Shown here in pieces: positions 6,548-13,191 of a DNA stretch of 64,000 nt. The DNA comes from Propioniciclava sp. MC1595. Its GTDB lineage: Bacteria > Actinomycetota > Actinomycetes > Propionibacteriales > Propionibacteriaceae. The stretch spans positions 1,116,001 through 1,180,000 of the forward strand of contig NZ_CP071870.1 of the NCBI RefSeq assembly GCF_017569205.1, given 5' to 3'. The first letter of the stretch is position 1. Every line of letters starts with the position of its first letter. The notes under the pieces were generated by a model. It was not told the origin of the DNA, did not search any database, and saw nothing but the letters and a program-made list of their open reading frames with translations. The position numbers and the translations under genes are program-made.

Positions 6548-7312
6548 TCAGCGCCCGCGCATCGCCCGGTTGATGCCCTTGGGCGTCGGCATCGGGCCCT
6601 TGGGCATCGGCGCCTTGGGGCGCACGGCGTCCAGGGCGCGCAGGCGCTGGCGCACCTCGGTCACCTGGTGGGGCTGCAGCGCCTTGGGCAGGGCCTTGAT
6701 GTGCTTCTCGAGGTCGCCCAGCTTGACCTGGCCGTCGCCCTTGCCGAGCAGGACCTGGGTCACGGGCGTCCCGTACGAGACCTGCTCGTGCTTGCGGGCC
6801 TCGCCCTGGATCAGCGGACGCACGCGGCCCACGGTGCCCTCGCCGATGAGCACGATGCCGCTGGGGCCGACGACGCGGTGCACCAGGTCGAGCTGGCGGG
6901 TCGCGGCGATGCCCATGTCGTAGGTGTACTTCTTGTTGTTCAGCAGCTGCAGGGCGACCTCGGCCGAACCGGGCTGGCCCTCGTAGCGCTTCACCATCGC
7001 GTACTTCACCCGCCGGGTGAGCATGATCATGGCGCCGAGCACGCCCGAGACCAGCGCCAGGGGCAGCCAAGCCCACCAGGCCATGTTCGACACGATGCCC
7101 AGCACGGCGATCAGGGCGACGAGGCCCAGGCCGACGCCGAGCATCCACCACGTCACCGACGGGTCGACCTCGGCGGTGCGCTTGTACGCCTCGACGAACT
7201 GACGCCAACGACCCCAGTCCCGCGGGTCGTCGCTGTTCTTGCGCCGCAGCTTCTCCGCCTTGATGGCGGCCTTCTGCTTGGCGGCGAGTTCCTTCGCCTT
7301 TTCGCTGGCCAT
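6548..7312 (-). CDS. DUF4191 membrane protein
   Basis: 254-residue actinobacterial protein of unknown function. The N terminus is highly basic (about residues 1-50). Two adjacent transmembrane helices follow at about 55-100 (MLGVGLGLVALIAVLGIV and WAWLPLALVSGVLGAMIML), then a cytosolic domain and a Pro/Lys-rich tail. It is the lipA neighbour in many actinobacteria (Rv2219 position in M. tuberculosis, from memory). The ATG at 7312 is preferred because GGAG lies six bases upstream; a GTG six bases earlier overlaps the lipA stop codon. Only two bases separate it from lipA, so they form an operon. Confidence 0.85.
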   Translation of the reverse strand: MASEKAKELAAKQKAAIKAEKLRRKNSDDPRDWGRWRQFVEAYKRTAEVDPSVTWWMLGVGLGLVALIAVLGIVSNMAWWAWLPLALVSGVLGAMIMLTRRVKYAMVKRYEGQPGSAEVALQLLNNKKYTYDMGIAATRQLDLVHRVVGPSGIVLIGEGTVGRVRPLIQGEARKHEQVSYGTPVTQVLLGKGDGQVKLGDLEKHIKALPKALQPHQVTEVRQRLRALDAVRPKAPMPKGPMPTPKGINRAMRGR

Positions 7313-7314
7313 TC

Positions 7315-8262
7315 TCACTCCACGCTGGTCGTCACGGGTGCCTTGCGCCGGGCATCGATCGCCTGGCGGTAGAGCCGGCCCGCACGGTAGGACGAGCGGA
7401 CGAGCGGCCCCGAGAGCACTCCTGCATATCCTAGGGCCTTCGCCTCGGTCTCCAGCTCACCGAACTCCTCGGGCGTCACCCAGCGGTCGATCGGGTGGTG
7501 CTTGGCCGACGGGCGCAGGTACTGCGTGATCGTGACCAGCTCGGTGCCCGCCGAGCGCAGGTCGACCAGGGCCTGCGTGATCTCCTCGCGCGTCTCGCCC
7601 ATGCCCAGGATCAGGTTCGACTTGGTCACCAGCCCCGCCTCGCGGGCCTGGGCCAGCACCGACAGCGAGCGGTCGTAGTCGAACGCCGGGCGGATGCGCC
7701 TGAAGATCCGTGGCACGGTCTCGACGTTGTGCGCGAACACCTCGGGGGCCGCCTCGAACACCGTCTCCAGCGCCGAGCGCGAGCCCTTGAAGTCGTCGAC
7801 CAGCAGCTCGACGCCGCAACCGGGGTTGAGCTCCTTGATCTGGCGGCAGGTCTCGGCGTACAGCCACGACGCGCCGTCGGGCAGGTCGTCGCGGGCCACG
7901 CCGGTCACGGTCGCGTAGCGCAGGCCCATCTCGCGCACCGACTCGGCGACGCGGCGCGGCTCGTCCTTGTCGTAGCCCGATGGACGCCCCGTCGCGATCT
8001 GGCAGAAGTCGCAGCGGCGCGTGCACTGGTCGCCGCCGATGAGGAAGGTGGCCTCGCGGTCCTCCCAGCACTCGAAGATGTTGGGGCACCCGGCCTCCTG
8101 GCACACCGTGTGCAGGCCGCCGCCCTTCACCCGTGACTGCATGTCCCGGTACTCCGGGCCCATCACCGCCTTGGTCTTGATCCAGGCCGGCTTGCGTTCG
8201 ATCGGGGTCTCTGCGTTGCGCGCCTCGATGCGCAGCAGTCGACGTGGCTGGGTGTCGGTCAC
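7315..8262 (-). CDS. lipA: Lipoyl synthase
   Basis: 315-residue radical SAM enzyme that inserts two sulfurs into protein-bound octanoate, making the lipoyl cofactor of 2-oxoacid dehydrogenases and the glycine cleavage H protein. The auxiliary cluster cysteines are C54, C59 and C65 ([12 protein letters not shown]). The radical SAM cluster is CTRRCDFC (C80, C84, C87). The C-terminal RSSYRAG motif supplies the serine ligand. Translation starts at GTG, six bases after TAGGAT (8269-8274 on the minus strand), so the transcript looks leaderless. It acts after LipB, which here lies beyond an intervening phosphofructokinase gene. Confidence 0.97.
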
Positions 8263-8288
8263 CCGACCATCCTAGGCTCGGGTACGGG

Positions 8289-10481
8289 TCATGCCGTCGG
8301 GCGGCTCCCGAGGGCGGACAGCACCGGCTTCAGCACCATCCACCACTGCTCCTTCGGACGCCGCACGTCCCAGTCCACGAGGTCGTCCAGGTCGCGCACC
8401 GACCGGACGCCCTCCGGTGTGGTGAACCCGTGCACGGCCTCGCCGGACGCCAGCGCCTCGGTCATCCAGTCGGTCACCTGCGCGGCCAGCCGGACGCCGT
8501 TGATGCGGTCGAAGGGGGTCGGGATGCCGCCCTGCTGGACGTGGCCGAGCACCACGCCGCGGACGCTGAACGCGCCCCGACCCTCGGCCTCGAACATCCG
8601 GGTCAGCAGGTCGGTGGTGTAGAACGCGGACGCCTCCTCGTTGCGGATCGCCAGCCACCGGTCCTGCCCGGACGCGAAGGCCTCGATCATCGCGTCCACG
8701 TCCTCCTTGAGGTCGGCGATGGTGAGCCCGTCCTCCTGCAGGTAGACGCGCTCGGCGCCGGCGGCGACACCGGTGGTCAGGGCGAGGAAGCCGCACCGGC
8801 GTCCCATCACCTCGACCACGAACGCCCGCTGCGTGGCCGACGCGGACCGCTTGATCCGGTCCACCGACTCGACCGCCACGTTGAGGGCGGTGTCGGCACC
8901 GATGGCCATCTGCAGGCTGGGCAGGTTGTTGTCGATGGACGCCGGCACGACCACCATCGGGATCCCCAGGGCGGGGAACCGCTTGCGCTCGGCGTGGAAC
9001 AGGGTGAGCGCCCGGTAGGCCTGGAACCCGCCGATGACGACGATGCCGTCCAGGGCCTGGGTCTCGATCGAGCGCGCAAGGGCGTAGAGGTCCTCCTCGC
9101 CGGGGATCCACCGTTGGGTGCCCAGGTTGGCCCCGCCCGCCGACGACCAGCCCTCGACGTCGGCCCACCCGAGCTCGTGCAGGTCGCCCGCGATCAGGCC
9201 CGGGAAGCCGCCCTCGACCCCCACCATCGTGTGCCCGCGGTCGACGCCCAGCCGGACCAGGGCCTTCGCGGCGGGGTTCATGCCCGGCGCGAGCCCGCCC
9301 GCGTGCATGACGGCGATGCGCTTGCCGGTGGCGTGCTCGGGACCGCGGGTGCGGGCCTCCGACAGCCGGCGGAAGGTCTTGTGCATCTGGACGAAGGAGC
9401 TGCCGCGGGCGGCCATGGCCTCCTCGTAGCGCCCCTCCTCGACGAACGTGGCCACGGCGCGGGTGGCGGCCACGGCGTCCGCCAGCGGCATGGGGTGCGG
9501 GCGGTTGGCCCGGACGCCGATGACCTGCGGCTCGCGATCGCCCCGCAGCACCTCGTCGACGGCCGCGTGCCCGACCAGGGACGCCATCCACCGGTCGTAG
9601 GCCGAGGGGATGCCACCGCGCTGGACGTGGCCCAGGATCGTGACGCGGGGGTCCTCGCCCATCTCGTCGGCCAGCGCGCTGCGCACGTCGTCGGCCGTGA
9701 TGGGACGCCCCTGCCGGTCGGCGGCGCCCTCGGCCACCACGACGATCGAGCTGCGCCGCCCTGCGTCGCGGGATCGCTTCAGCACCGACGCCAGGTGCGA
9801 CTGCCAGCCCGCCTCGGGCGGGAACTCGGGCACCAGCGCGTAGTCGGCACCGCCCGCGATCGCGCTCATCAGGGCGAGGTAGCCGCAGTGGCGGCCCATC
9901 ACCTCGACGACGAAGATGCGCTGGTGGGACGCCGCGGTGCTGGCGATGGCGTCGATCGCCTCGGTGATGCGGTGGAGGGCGGAGTCGGTGCCGATCGTCA
10001 TGTCGGTGCCGACCATGTCGTTGTCGATCGTCCCGACGAGGCCGGCGATGACCAGGTGCCCGTGGCGCTCGGCCTGCTCGGGGGTGATCTCGCCGGCGTC
10101 CCGCAGGGCGGCCACGTGGTCGGGCCACTCGGCGCGCAGCATGTCGGTGCCGGTGAGGGAGCCGTCGCCGCCGATCACGATGATGCGGTCGATGCCGTGG
10201 CCGATGAGGTTCGCCGCGGCCCGGCGCCGGCCCTCCTCGGTGCGGAACTCGGCGCACCGGGCGGTGCCGATCACGGTGCCGCCGTCGGCGGTGATGCCGG
10301 ACACGTCGTCCCACGACAGCGGGCGGATCTGGTCGCCCCCGTCGACGGCGCCCTTCCAACCCTCGAGGATCCCGTAGACCTCGGCGCCGGCGCCGATGCC
10401 GGCGCGGACCACGGCCCGCACGGCCGCGTTCATGCCGGGGGCGTCCCCGCCCGAGGTCAGGACACCGATGCGCACTGCCAT
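8289..10481 (-). CDS. Tandem-domain (eukaryote-type) 6-phosphofructokinase
   Basis: 730-residue protein, twice the usual bacterial PFK length of about 320-340. The N half (1-386) keeps the substrate and ATP motifs: TSGGDAPGMN (9-18), GGDGSLTG (104-111), GTIDND (150-155) and MGRHCG (195-200). Gly in GGDGS and before TIDND marks ATP rather than pyrophosphate use. The C half (from about 387) is a diverged copy with GGFQAY (484-489) and ASIDNN (514-519) at the equivalent sites, so it is probably regulatory. This architecture and wording resemble animal and fungal PFK. It starts at ATG 10481, seven bases after TAGGGT (10489-10494), which overlaps the lipB stop; an upstream in-frame start lies inside lipB. 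Expected role: fructose 6-phosphate to fructose 1,6-bisphosphate. Confidence 0.9.
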   Translation of the reverse strand: MAVRIGVLTSGGDAPGMNAAVRAVVRAGIGAGAEVYGILEGWKGAVDGGDQIRPLSWDDVSGITADGGTVIGTARCAEFRTEEGRRRAAANLIGHGIDRIIVIGGDGSLTGTDMLRAEWPDHVAALRDAGEITPEQAERHGHLVIAGLVGTIDNDMVGTDMTIGTDSALHRITEAIDAIASTAASHQRIFVVEVMGRHCGYLALMSAIAGGADYALVPEFPPEAGWQSHLASVLKRSRDAGRRSSIVVVAEGAADRQGRPITADDVRSALADEMGEDPRVTILGHVQRGGIPSAYDRWMASLVGHAAVDEVLRGDREPQVIGVRANRPHPMPLADAVAATRAVATFVEEGRYEEAMAARGSSFVQMHKTFRRLSEARTRGPEHATGKRIAVMHAGGLAPGMNPAAKALVRLGVDRGHTMVGVEGGFPGLIAGDLHELGWADVEGWSSAGGANLGTQRWIPGEEDLYALARSIETQALDGIVVIGGFQAYRALTLFHAERKRFPALGIPMVVVPASIDNNLPSLQMAIGADTALNVAVESVDRIKRSASATQRAFVVEVMGRRCGFLALTTGVAAGAERVYLQEDGLTIADLKEDVDAMIEAFASGQDRWLAIRNEEASAFYTTDLLTRMFEAEGRGAFSVRGVVLGHVQQGGIPTPFDRINGVRLAAQVTDWMTEALASGEAVHGFTTPEGVRSVRDLDDLVDWDVRRPKEQWWMVLKPVLSALGSRPTA

Positions 10482-10491
10482 GGACCCAACC

Positions 10492-11223
10492 CTAGGCCCC
10501 CGCGGCCTCCACGGGGAGTCGCGCGGCGCGACCGGCCGCACCTGTCTCGAGGGCGAAGGCGAGCTCACGGGCCAGCAGGGGCTCCAGGTCCCGGGCGACG
10601 TCGACCAGCGCGGCGGCCGAGCCGACCTCGTCGGCGATGCTGGTCACGCCGGCGTCGTCGATGCCGCACGGCACGATGTTGCCGAACGGGCCGACCGAGT
10701 CGGCGGACACGTTGAGGGCGAACCCGTGCATGGTCGTCATCCGTGACACCCGGATGCCGATGGCGCAGATCTTGCGCTCGGGGCGTCCGTCGTCGGCGGG
10801 CAGCCAGACGCCGGTGCGCCCGTCGACCCGCCCGCCACGGATGCCGAGCGGGGCCAGCACGTCGATCACCGCCTGCTCGAGGCGGCGCACGTACTCGAGG
10901 GGTCCGATCTGGCGCGACAGCGTCACGATCGGGTAGCCGACCAGCTGGCCGGGGCCGTGGTAGGTGATCTTGCCGCCGCGGTCGACGTCGATCACCGGGG
11001 TGCCGTCGAAGGGGCGCTCGGTGTCGAGGGTGCGGCGTCCGGCGGTGTAGACGGGCGGGTGCTGCACGTAGAGCACCTGCGGGCCGACCTCTCCGGCGAC
11101 CACCCGGGCGTGGACGGCGCGCTGGTAGTCCCAGGTCGCGCGGTAGTCGCTGGGGGCCAGGTCGGTGCCGTCGAAGCCCAGGTACTCGAACGTGAACCCG
11201 TCACGGGTGGAGGGATGCTGCAC
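10492..11223 (-). CDS. lipB: Lipoyl(octanoyl) transferase
   Basis: 243-residue enzyme moving octanoate from acyl carrier protein to the lysine of lipoyl domains, the step before LipA. Motifs seen are the [18 protein letters not shown] substrate loop (RGGxxTxHxPGQ), the catalytic Lys in ERKICAIGI, and the catalytic Cys in NIVPCGI. GTG 11223 is chosen because TACAGT (11231-11236 on the minus strand) sits seven bases upstream and homology begins here; a longer frame would start 84 bases earlier. Its substrate, the two-lipoyl-domain E2, is encoded immediately upstream. Confidence 0.95.
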
Positions 11224-11252
11224 GCCGGGCACTGTACGCGCATCCCGGGACG

Positions 11253-11290
11253 CCGACGGGCCGCCCCCATGCTGGGAGCGGGCCCGTCGG
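11253..11290 (-). terminator. Hairpin after the E2 gene
   Basis: Perfect 10-bp arms CCGACGGGCC (11253-11262) and GGCCCGTCGG (11281-11290), with a further CCC/GGG inner pairing. It lies in the 83-base gap after the E2 stop and just upstream of the lipB -10 hexamer. There is no U-tract. Confidence 0.45.
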
Positions 11291-11306
11291 TGTGCTGCGG
11301 TGTGCA

Positions 11307-13088
11307 TCAGGCGCCGAACTCGGCCCCGAAGTCGCCCTCCTCCAGGCGCGCCTTCACGAAGGAGAGGAAGCGCGCGGCGTCGGCACCGTCGACCAGGCGG
11401 TGGTCGTAGGACAGCGACAGGTACATCATGTCGCGGATCGCGATGACCTCACCCAGCTCGGGGTCGTTCACGACGACCGGGCGCTTCACGAGCGCGCCGG
11501 TGCCGAGGATGGCGACCTCGGGCTGGTTCACGATCGGGGTGTCGAACAGCGTGCCCGCCGACCCGTAGTTCGTGATGGTGAAGGTGCCGCCGGACAGCTC
11601 GTCGGGGCCCACCTTGTTGGTGCGGGTCCGCGCCGCGATGTCGGCGATCTTCTTGGCCAGGCCGGTGACGTTGAGGTCACCCGCGTCCTTGACGACCGGG
11701 ACCAGCAGGCCACGCTCGGTGTCCACGGCGATGCCGACGTGCTCGGAGTCGCGGTAGTGGATCTCGCCGGCCTCGGTGTCGATCTGCGCGTTGAGCTTCG
11801 GGAAGTTCTTCAGGCCCTCGACCGCCGCCTTCGTGATGAACGGCAGGTACGACAGCGAGGCACCCTCGCGGGCCTTGAAGGCGTCCTTGGCCTTCGCGCG
11901 GATCTTGCTGATGTTGGTCAGGTCGACCTCGACCGTCGCCGTGAGCTGCGCCGAGACCTGCAGGGACTCGACCATGCGCGAGGCGATGATCTTGCGCAGG
12001 CGCGACATCTTCTCGGTCGTGCCGCGCTTGGCCTCGGCGGCCGGGTCACCCTGCGGGGCGGACGCCGCGGGTGCGGCCGGGGCGGCCGGTGCAGCGGCGG
12101 CGGGAGCAGCAGCCGGAGCGGCGGCGGGGGCCTCCTGTTTCGGGGCCTTGGCGGCCTCGGCGGCGGCCAGGACGTCCTGCTTGCGGATGCGGCCACCGAC
12201 GCCGGAGCCCTGCACCGAGTTCAGGTCGATGCCGTGCTGGGCGGCGAGCTTGCGGACCAGCGGGGTCACGTAGCCGGTGTCGGGCGCCTCGGCGGCCCGG
12301 CGCGGCGCGGCCTCCTCCTTGGGAGCCTCCTGCTTCGGGGCCTCCTGCTTGGGCTCCTGGGGAGCCTCCTGCTTCGGCTCCTCCTTCGGGGCCTCCTGCT
12401 GCTTGGGCTCCTCCTGGGCGGGGGCCGCGGGGGCCTCGGCGGGGGCGGAGCCGGCGGCGTTGGGGTCGCCGATGATGGCCAAGACGGCGCCGACCTCGGC
12501 GGTCTCGTCCTCCTGGACGCGGATCTCGAGGAGGGTGCCGGCGGCGGGGGAGGGGATCTCGGTGTCGACCTTGTCGGTGGAGACCTCGACCAGGGCCTCG
12601 TCGGCCTCGACGGTGTCGCCGACGGCCTTGAGCCAGCGGGAGATGGTGCCCTCGGTGACGGACTCACCCAGCGCGGGCAGGGTCACCTCGGTGCCCTGCG
12701 CGGCACCACCGGAGGGGGCCGCGGCGGCCTGCTGCTCGGCCGCGCTCGGGTCGACCGGGGCGGCCTGCTCCTCGGCGGGGGTGTCGGCCACCTCCTGGAC
12801 CTCCTCGGCCGGGGCGGCCGCGGGGGCGTCGCCGCCGCCGGAGGCCTCGCCGGGCTCGCCGATCACGGCCAGGACGGCGCCGACCTCGGCGGTGTCGTCC
12901 TCCTGGAAGAGGATCTCCAGCACCGTGCCGGCCACCGGCGACGGGATCTCGGTGTCGACCTTGTCGGTCGACACCTCCACCAGCGCCTCGTCGACCTCGA
13001 CGGTGTCGCCGACCTGCTTCAGCCAGCGGGAGATGGTGCCTTCCGTGACGCTTTCACCCAGTGCGGGAAGGGGGACATTGGTCGGCAT
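11307..13088 (-). CDS. sucB: Dihydrolipoamide acyltransferase (E2), two lipoyl domains
   Basis: 593-residue E2 of a 2-oxoacid dehydrogenase complex. Two lipoyl domains carry DKVDTE with lipoylated K43 and K173. They are separated by Ala/Pro/Glu linkers, including a KQEAPKEE repeat run at about 225-265. The E3-binding domain is at about 273-308 ([18 protein letters not shown]). The C-terminal catalytic domain has the YDHRLVDG motif near residue 565. Actinobacterial homologues (DlaT in M. tuberculosis) serve pyruvate dehydrogenase despite the common sucB name, so substrate is uncertain. ATG 13088 follows AAGGAG by nine bases. No E1 or E3 gene is nearby. Confidence 0.93.
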
Positions 13089-13191
13089 GCTCACAGGCTC
13101 CTTCTTCGATGACTGGCCGTTTCCTGACCCAGACTAGCCCCCTGCCGGGGGACTGCACACACCGGATCCGCCGGTTGGCGGACGGTGGATT

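Follow-up and report, generated by a model that had tools for sequence, protein, structure and literature searches.

A two-domain phosphofructokinase of eukaryotic type in Propioniciclava and its probable common origin with animal and fungal PFK-1

Introduction

How did a propionibacterium come by a phosphofructokinase (PFK) that reads like the two-domain enzyme of animals, and what would the second domain do there? The question arises from a single gene in a 64,000-nucleotide stretch of the Propioniciclava sp. MC1595 genome (hereafter, the window). In the accessible text of earlier papers, the fusion of two PFK domains is described as a trait of eukaryotic enzymes (PMC12203962, PMC2990764, PMC7702303), and the duplication is treated as eukaryotic, or as belonging to animals and fungi (PMC12203962, PMC11609450). 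The existence of tandem PFKs in bacteria is already known. A first-pass annotation of the locus had noted a eukaryote-type tandem PFK in a bacterium; a 2021 paper, in its available part, names the eukaryotic type in Chloroflexota, giving a 747-aa 6PF1K_euk PFK of Chloroflexus aggregans (Cagg_2702) with homologs in many Chloroflexota and describing such PFKs as not general in many other bacteria (PMC8004040).

We argue, at a probability of about 0.7, that the Propioniciclava protein is an ATP-dependent two-domain PFK, that it and the PFK-1 of animals and fungi go back to one and the same duplication and fusion, and that its C-terminal half is an allosteric sugar-phosphate site.

Results

A tandem PFK with an ATP-type N half

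The gene, the two halves of its product and its neighbors are listed in Table 1; the start codon is the ATG at position 10481 of the minus strand. Pfam finds the PFK family in two stretches of the protein (PF00365; E-value = 2.4e-184), both within one open frame, which agrees with the head-to-tail double PFK of 730 residues reported by the first-pass annotation. The motifs on which that description relied are present in the translated frame: VIGGDGSLTG, GTDMTIGTDSALHRI, SHQR, VEVMGRHCGYLAL and GHVQRGGIPSAYDR, all in the N half, and GGFQAY and ASIDNN in the C half.

Table 1. Features of the tandem PFK locus (positions are those of the window)
Feature	Position	Strand	Basis or remark
Two-domain ATP-type 6-phosphofructokinase, 730 aa	8289..10481	minus	open frame, Pfam, TIGR02478, structure matches
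N-terminal catalytic half, about residues 1-384	9330..10481	minus	active-site residues compared with E. coli
C-terminal, putatively regulatory half, about residues 385-730	8289..9329	minus	residue alignment
Upstream neighbor, presumably lipB	10492..11307	minus	its end lies 10 bases upstream of the PFK start codon
Downstream neighbor, presumably lipA	7315..8262	minus	starts 26 bases past the PFK stop codon

The NCBIfam model of eukaryotic 6-phosphofructokinase (TIGR02478) matches residues 4-727 with 930.8 bits, above its curated cut-off of 708.4, and the next models score far lower (520.7 and 492 bits). Among solved structures, the best matches by sequence are mammalian PFKs, and the likeness to rabbit PFKM (704.7 bits over residues 4-725) is far above chance. 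An AlphaFold2 model built from a 23-sequence alignment has a mean pLDDT of 90.8, and the best PDB match of the predicted fold is human PFKL (8w2g; TM-scores of 0.96 and 0.95, 1.8 Å).

At the positions that we take to be those of the active site (E. coli numbering from Met1), the N half is identical to the E. coli enzyme in 19 of the 21 compared. The two differences, W and C, fall at Y42 and F74 of the nucleotide pocket, positions that vary among the N halves and likewise among single-domain PFKs. Across 103 bacterial tandem sequences, the N half invariably keeps D104, G105, D128, D130, R163, M170, G171, R172, E223, R244, H250 and R253; G125 is kept in 101, and position 83 is R in 85, the query included. 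PPi-dependent PFKs bear the signature GGDD and PKTIDND at the donor site. Neither motif occurs in the N half of the query, which has GGDGS and GTIDND instead, with the ATP-type Gly at both donor positions. Judged by these residues, the N half appears to hold an intact ATP-type active site; together with the TIGR02478 match, this bears out the proposal that the tandem PFK is of eukaryote type and carries ATP-type residues at the donor site.

The genome (3.43 Mb, one contig) has three PF00365 matches, namely the two tandem halves and one further PFK. This second PFK (408 aa) does carry GGDD and PKTIDND, in line with an earlier remark on the reliance of Propionibacterium on a PPi-dependent PFK.

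Location within a lipoate gene cluster

We assign the names lipA, lipB and sucB from sequence and gene order. The PFK gene lies between lipB and lipA in 8 of the 13 genomes of the genus, in the order sucB-lipB-pfk-lipA-DUF (window positions 6548-13094, minus strand), and a search starting from lipA confirmed this arrangement. The order is shared by, among others, the loci of P. sinopodophylli and P. flava; the query is 77 and 76 per cent identical to their respective tandem PFKs. In one genome that lacks the tandem gene and is rated 100 per cent complete (G008), lipB and lipA are adjacent; they are also adjacent in two others (G002 and G003), where the tandem gene is located about 2.6 kb away on the opposite strand. 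These arrangements indicate that the PFK gene moved into or out of the lip operon within the genus. At an E-value of 1e-60, lipA was not matched in two further genomes (G007 and G010). Outside the genus, no linkage between PFK and lipoate genes was found in locus flanks of up to 6 kb, many of them about 1.5 kb.

Patchy distribution among bacteria

The tandem PFK is not peculiar to this bacterium. We found it above the TIGR02478 cut-off in 22 of 57 genomes (the query genome and its relatives): 11 of 13 in the genus (own genome included), 11 of 20 others in the family and 0 of 24 from other families of the order. It was also found in samples of other groups. With the genome at the center of each sample counted, the cut-off was exceeded in 25 of 396 genomes of the query's own phylum, in 32 of 301 from the phylum of Chloroflexi AL-N1 and in 3 of 321 from the class of an Accumulibacter genome, the other two of these lying nearest Competibacteraceae and Contendobacter. 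It was exceeded by 26 of 39 genomes in the family that includes a Competibacter genome (29 of 39 match at an E-value of 1e-100) and by none of 14 named control genomes. The phylum sample around a Trueperaceae metagenome-assembled genome (MAG) yielded 1 in 101, the center itself; carriage in Deinococcota rests on one 6-kb MAG contig (L099), which may be misbinned. The distribution of the family is patchy and takes in Actinomycetota, Chloroflexota, Competibacteraceae and Accumulibacter.

We rejected Planctomycetota as a further phylum, since the record titled Phycisphaerales GAO1 (G457; L045, L156) belongs to the same family as the Competibacter genome. That title is probably wrong. The phylum sample centered on G457 probably drew on Pseudomonadota (1 of 200 genomes, the center itself), and its sequence was kept as one row in the trees.

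Additional loci came from a scan of contigs with six peptide patterns taken from the query, of whose 144 matches 80 were kept, a biased list. Among the matches listed, the named origins include 9 Accumulibacter, 17 Competibacteraceae, 8 Tessaracoccus and 3 Propioniciclava.

Some carriers have unusual gene structures. One contig of Chloroflexi AL-N1 (G475; L110, L154) carries a pair of tandem PFK genes, separated by about 226 kb. In G005 (L025), the tandem PFK matches the model in two pieces (model positions 2-79 and 81-742) lying two bases apart, which suggests that the gene is frameshifted or misread. In four genomes of the Competibacter family (G1404, G1405, G545 and G1395), three matches contain one stop codon and one match is split near the domain border; these are perhaps assembly errors.

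One duplication shared with animal and yeast PFKs

The loci supplied 149 tandem frames, 150 with the query, and removal of 47 near-copies left 103 sequences, of which 33 or 14 entered the trees. The eukaryotic set comprised six opisthokont chains, and the single-domain set comprised 38 PFKs, mostly from Chloroflexota. A quick tree was built from the separated halves of 33 bacterial and 6 eukaryotic proteins, together with 21 single-domain PFKs. Its N halves all fall in one clade (SH-aLRT support of 99) and its C halves all in another (100). In such a tree of separate halves, which the first-pass annotation had proposed, each half of the protein thus groups with the matching half of the animal and yeast enzymes.

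A smaller, more careful tree comprised the halves of 14 bacterial and 6 eukaryotic proteins and 10 single-domain PFKs. Constraining the bacterial N and C halves to group with each other lowered its log-likelihood by 175.8 (approximately unbiased [AU] test; P-value = 6e-105), and forcing the N half of the query to group with its own C half was likewise rejected (AU test; P-value = 1.5e-53). Two length characters agree with these tests. The spacing between the equivalents of E. coli G109 and T126 is 39 residues in the N halves of all 103 bacterial and all six eukaryotic proteins, and 23 residues in the C halves of 102 of the 103 bacterial and all six eukaryotic ones; in single-domain PFKs, it is 16-17 residues (38/38). 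The half clades, the AU tests and the two length characters together show that a single duplication and fusion underlies the bacterial and eukaryotic tandem PFKs.

A C half with a lost ATP site and a retained sugar-phosphate pocket

In the C half of the query, the ATP site is lost (F486, Q487, A488 and N519), and the sugar-phosphate pocket is kept (R457, R552, E615, R641 and H647, as well as D517 and R561). The same pattern runs through the 103 bacterial sequences. At C-half positions equivalent to those of the E. coli active site, D104 is never kept (W in 47, F in 32), S106 is kept in 1 (A in 73, G in 28), D130 in 21 (N in 82) and R253 in none (Q in 96), whereas the equivalents of R73, R163, E223 and R244 are kept in all 103 and that of H250 in 102. 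Residues therefore point to a C half that has no ATP site and retains a sugar-phosphate pocket.

Two columns of the pocket differ between the groups. The D128 column holds D in 75, N in 23, S in 4 and T in 1 of the 103 bacterial sequences, and S in all six eukaryotic chains; the R172 column holds R in 88, with R missing in 15, and G in all six eukaryotic chains. The Ser given for the animal copy in the first-pass annotation is correct, rabbit PFKM having S530 where the query has D517. The "intermediate state" suggested there for the C half fits the residues, since Asp and Arg are kept, but the phrase implies a direction of evolution that the trees do not establish.

In terms of regulation, eukaryotic-type PFKs are activated by fructose 2,6-bisphosphate and AMP/ADP and inhibited by ATP and citrate. 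Most of the sugar-pocket positions compared are identical between the query and the animal F-prime site, and the C-half citrate positions K557, D591 and K617 correspond to K544, E577 and A603 in the query. The aromatic residues of the AMP/ADP pocket of PFKL are given in the accessible text of one study as F308, F537, Y578 and F670 (PMC8802628), which align to Y295, M525, F565 and F657 of the query. In the 103 bacterial sequences, the first and third positions are aromatic without exception and the fourth in 97, and the second is F in 2. The F308 position is aromatic in 34 of 38 single-domain PFKs too, which makes these aromatics weak evidence for a nucleotide site.

No member of the PFK-2 family (PF01591) turned up in 40 carrier genomes, of which several are drafts, and the query's own genome likewise gave no match to this 6PF2K domain.

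Discussion

Origin and direction of transfer

The first-pass annotation had set a local duplication against its own reading. In that case a single-domain PFK of bacteria would have doubled, and the likeness to eukaryotic enzymes would have arisen by convergence. The identities lend this alternative a little color: the C half is 38.3 per cent identical to its best single-domain match and 39.1 per cent to the C half of rabbit PFKM, and the N half 48.1 and 54.5 per cent to the corresponding sequences. Yet we rejected it, and regard it as scarcely credible, given both AU tests reported above, the 39- and 23-residue spacings common to bacteria and eukaryotes, and the identical ATP-site losses in the C half. 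Another rival is transfer of the gene from eukaryotes, with the bacteria branching inside them. Bacterial tandem PFKs reach 53 per cent identity to human PFKP, more than the 43-46 per cent of four yeast chains, and the N-half tree recovers the eukaryotes as one clade in just 25 per cent of bootstrap replicates. The C-half and joined trees, however, place the six opisthokonts in one clade that excludes the query (support of 100/99 and 100/100, respectively), so that they do not favor transfer from the sampled eukaryotes; the bacteria mostly keep the Asp/Arg state, and the gene is spread across several bacterial lineages. We consider such a transfer very improbable. The opposite course is that the fusion of animal and fungal PFK-1 arose in bacteria before eukaryotes possessed it, the bacterial enzymes keeping a regulatory pocket from the time before fructose 2,6-bisphosphate (F2,6BP). 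Eukaryotes would then have acquired the finished enzyme, perhaps from near Chloroflexota, and the Asp and Arg would have given way to Ser and Gly with the appearance of PFK-2 and F2,6BP. The N-half, C-half and joined trees as drawn nest the eukaryotes among bacteria, the bacteria forming one clade in 0, 2 and 15 per cent of 200 bootstrap trees, respectively. In the C-half (90/92) and joined (80/90) trees, the neighbors of the eukaryotes are a Trueperaceae contig and a sequence from Chloroflexota. When the bacteria were held as one clade, the likelihood was equal for the N halves (0.01 apart; AU test, P-value = 0.486), 0.56 log-likelihood units above the free tree for the C halves, a solution missed by the free search (P-value = 0.524), and 0.94 units lower for the joined halves (P-value = 0.44). 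The quick tree places the eukaryotic N halves as sister to the bacterial ones, not inside them (90 and 90). Because one-clade bacteria fit about equally well and the quick tree sets the eukaryotic N halves beside the bacterial ones, we claim no direction; the better C-half tree with one-clade bacteria lowers the odds of a bacterial origin, which we hold tentatively, at somewhat less than even chances.

The ligand of the C half

In our reading, the C half would act as an allosteric site that senses fructose 6-phosphate (F6P) or the product fructose 1,6-bisphosphate (F1,6BP) and tunes the active site of the N half within a tetramer. In the available parts of two papers, the F-prime site of human enzymes binds both F1,6BP and F2,6BP, and F1,6BP is seen there in the structures of human PFKP and PFKL (PMC12203962, PMC8802628). 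A bacterial site that senses F2,6BP, as in animals, would accord with the largely identical sugar pocket; its ligand would have to come from a hypothetical bacterial source, such as an unrelated enzyme, which may supply F2,6BP despite the absence of PF01591. Against this stand that absence in all 40 carriers and the Asp and Arg that remain where all six eukaryotic chains have Ser and Gly. The Asp would, on structural grounds, repel the 2-phosphate of F2,6BP, and O-GlcNAc on Ser529 is reported in the accessible text of one paper to block F2,6BP binding (PMC7702303); from the numbering, Ser529 is presumably the column of rabbit S530. We judge F2,6BP sensing unlikely. Even less probable, in our view, is a C half that serves as a structural scaffold and binds no ligand: the C half is indeed less conserved (median bacterial identity to rabbit of 39.4 per cent, against 55.0 per cent for the N half), but the equivalents of R457, R552, E615 and R641 are invariant and that of H647 nearly so. 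The absence of PFK-2 from the carriers and the mostly kept Asp and Arg instead suggest F6P or F1,6BP as the likely ligand, with the sensing of F2,6BP a later eukaryotic change accompanied by Asp-to-Ser and Arg-to-Gly replacements in the pocket. As Asp and Arg are not universal among the 103 sequences, the ligand may differ among lineages.

Significance

In the cell, the enzyme could provide an irreversible, regulated glycolytic flux alongside the reversible one of a PPi-dependent PFK. It is not necessarily the main PFK of glycolysis, given the low transcription of the C. aggregans tandem gene (9.28 TPM, against 1312.12 for the single-domain gene, in the available part of PMC8004040). Bacteria that have the fusion and in which no PFK-2 was found separate the loss of the second active site from the gain of control by F2,6BP, two changes that are joined in eukaryotes, and a cultured bacterial member could reveal what the F-prime site sensed first. 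In a literature search that mostly covered papers outside subscription, we found no account that brings together the common origin, the Asp/Arg pocket and the missing PFK-2, and no description of a tandem PFK in Propioniciclava.

The pfkA homolog reported for Competibacteraceae and Accumulibacter may also be this tandem gene; the PFK step of these groups is unclear in many genomes according to the accessible text of one study (PMC11131965). There, the Accumulibacter homolog is derived from Competibacteraceae (PMC11131965); other partly available papers report evidence that, in phosphorus-removing communities, Betaproteobacteria received a 6-phosphofructokinase from Chloroflexi (PMC4502571) and list a PPi-dependent PFK in Accumulibacter (PMC12766714). 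We found tandem PFKs in both groups and assume that the pfkA homolog is this gene, whereas the available text of the two transfer studies does not term the enzyme eukaryote-type or two-domain (PMC11131965, PMC4502571).

Comparison with known systems

With eukaryotic two-domain PFK-1 (TIGR02478, IPR009161; animal PFKM, PFKL and PFKP; yeast alpha and beta), the Propioniciclava protein has in common its length, the order of its halves, its fold, the catalytic N half, the lost ATP site of the C half and the insertions. It differs in the C-half pocket, where D517 and R561 replace the Ser and Gly of all six eukaryotic chains and so place it outside the opisthokont branch of the family. Its genome also differs in yielding no PFK-2. 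Another difference concerns F538 of the animal AMP/ADP site, which is L, M or I in 96 of the 103 bacterial sequences. The C-terminal motif PKEQWW (within window positions 8289-8400, minus strand) is common to the Propioniciclava protein and two animal chains; it also occurs in several bacterial members and is absent from the two yeast chains compared.

Each half of the tandem protein corresponds to one PFK domain of the single-domain PfkA of E. coli and Geobacillus, but bacterial PfkA has one catalytic domain per chain, with neither the fusion nor either insertion. One described counterpart is Cagg_2702 of another phylum, likened here by its description in the accessible part of the C. aggregans study (PMC8004040). 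Both are eukaryotic-type PFKs of a bacterium beside a second PFK gene; the companion of Cagg_2702 is a bacterial-type PFK of 356 aa, whereas that of the query carries PPi-type motifs.
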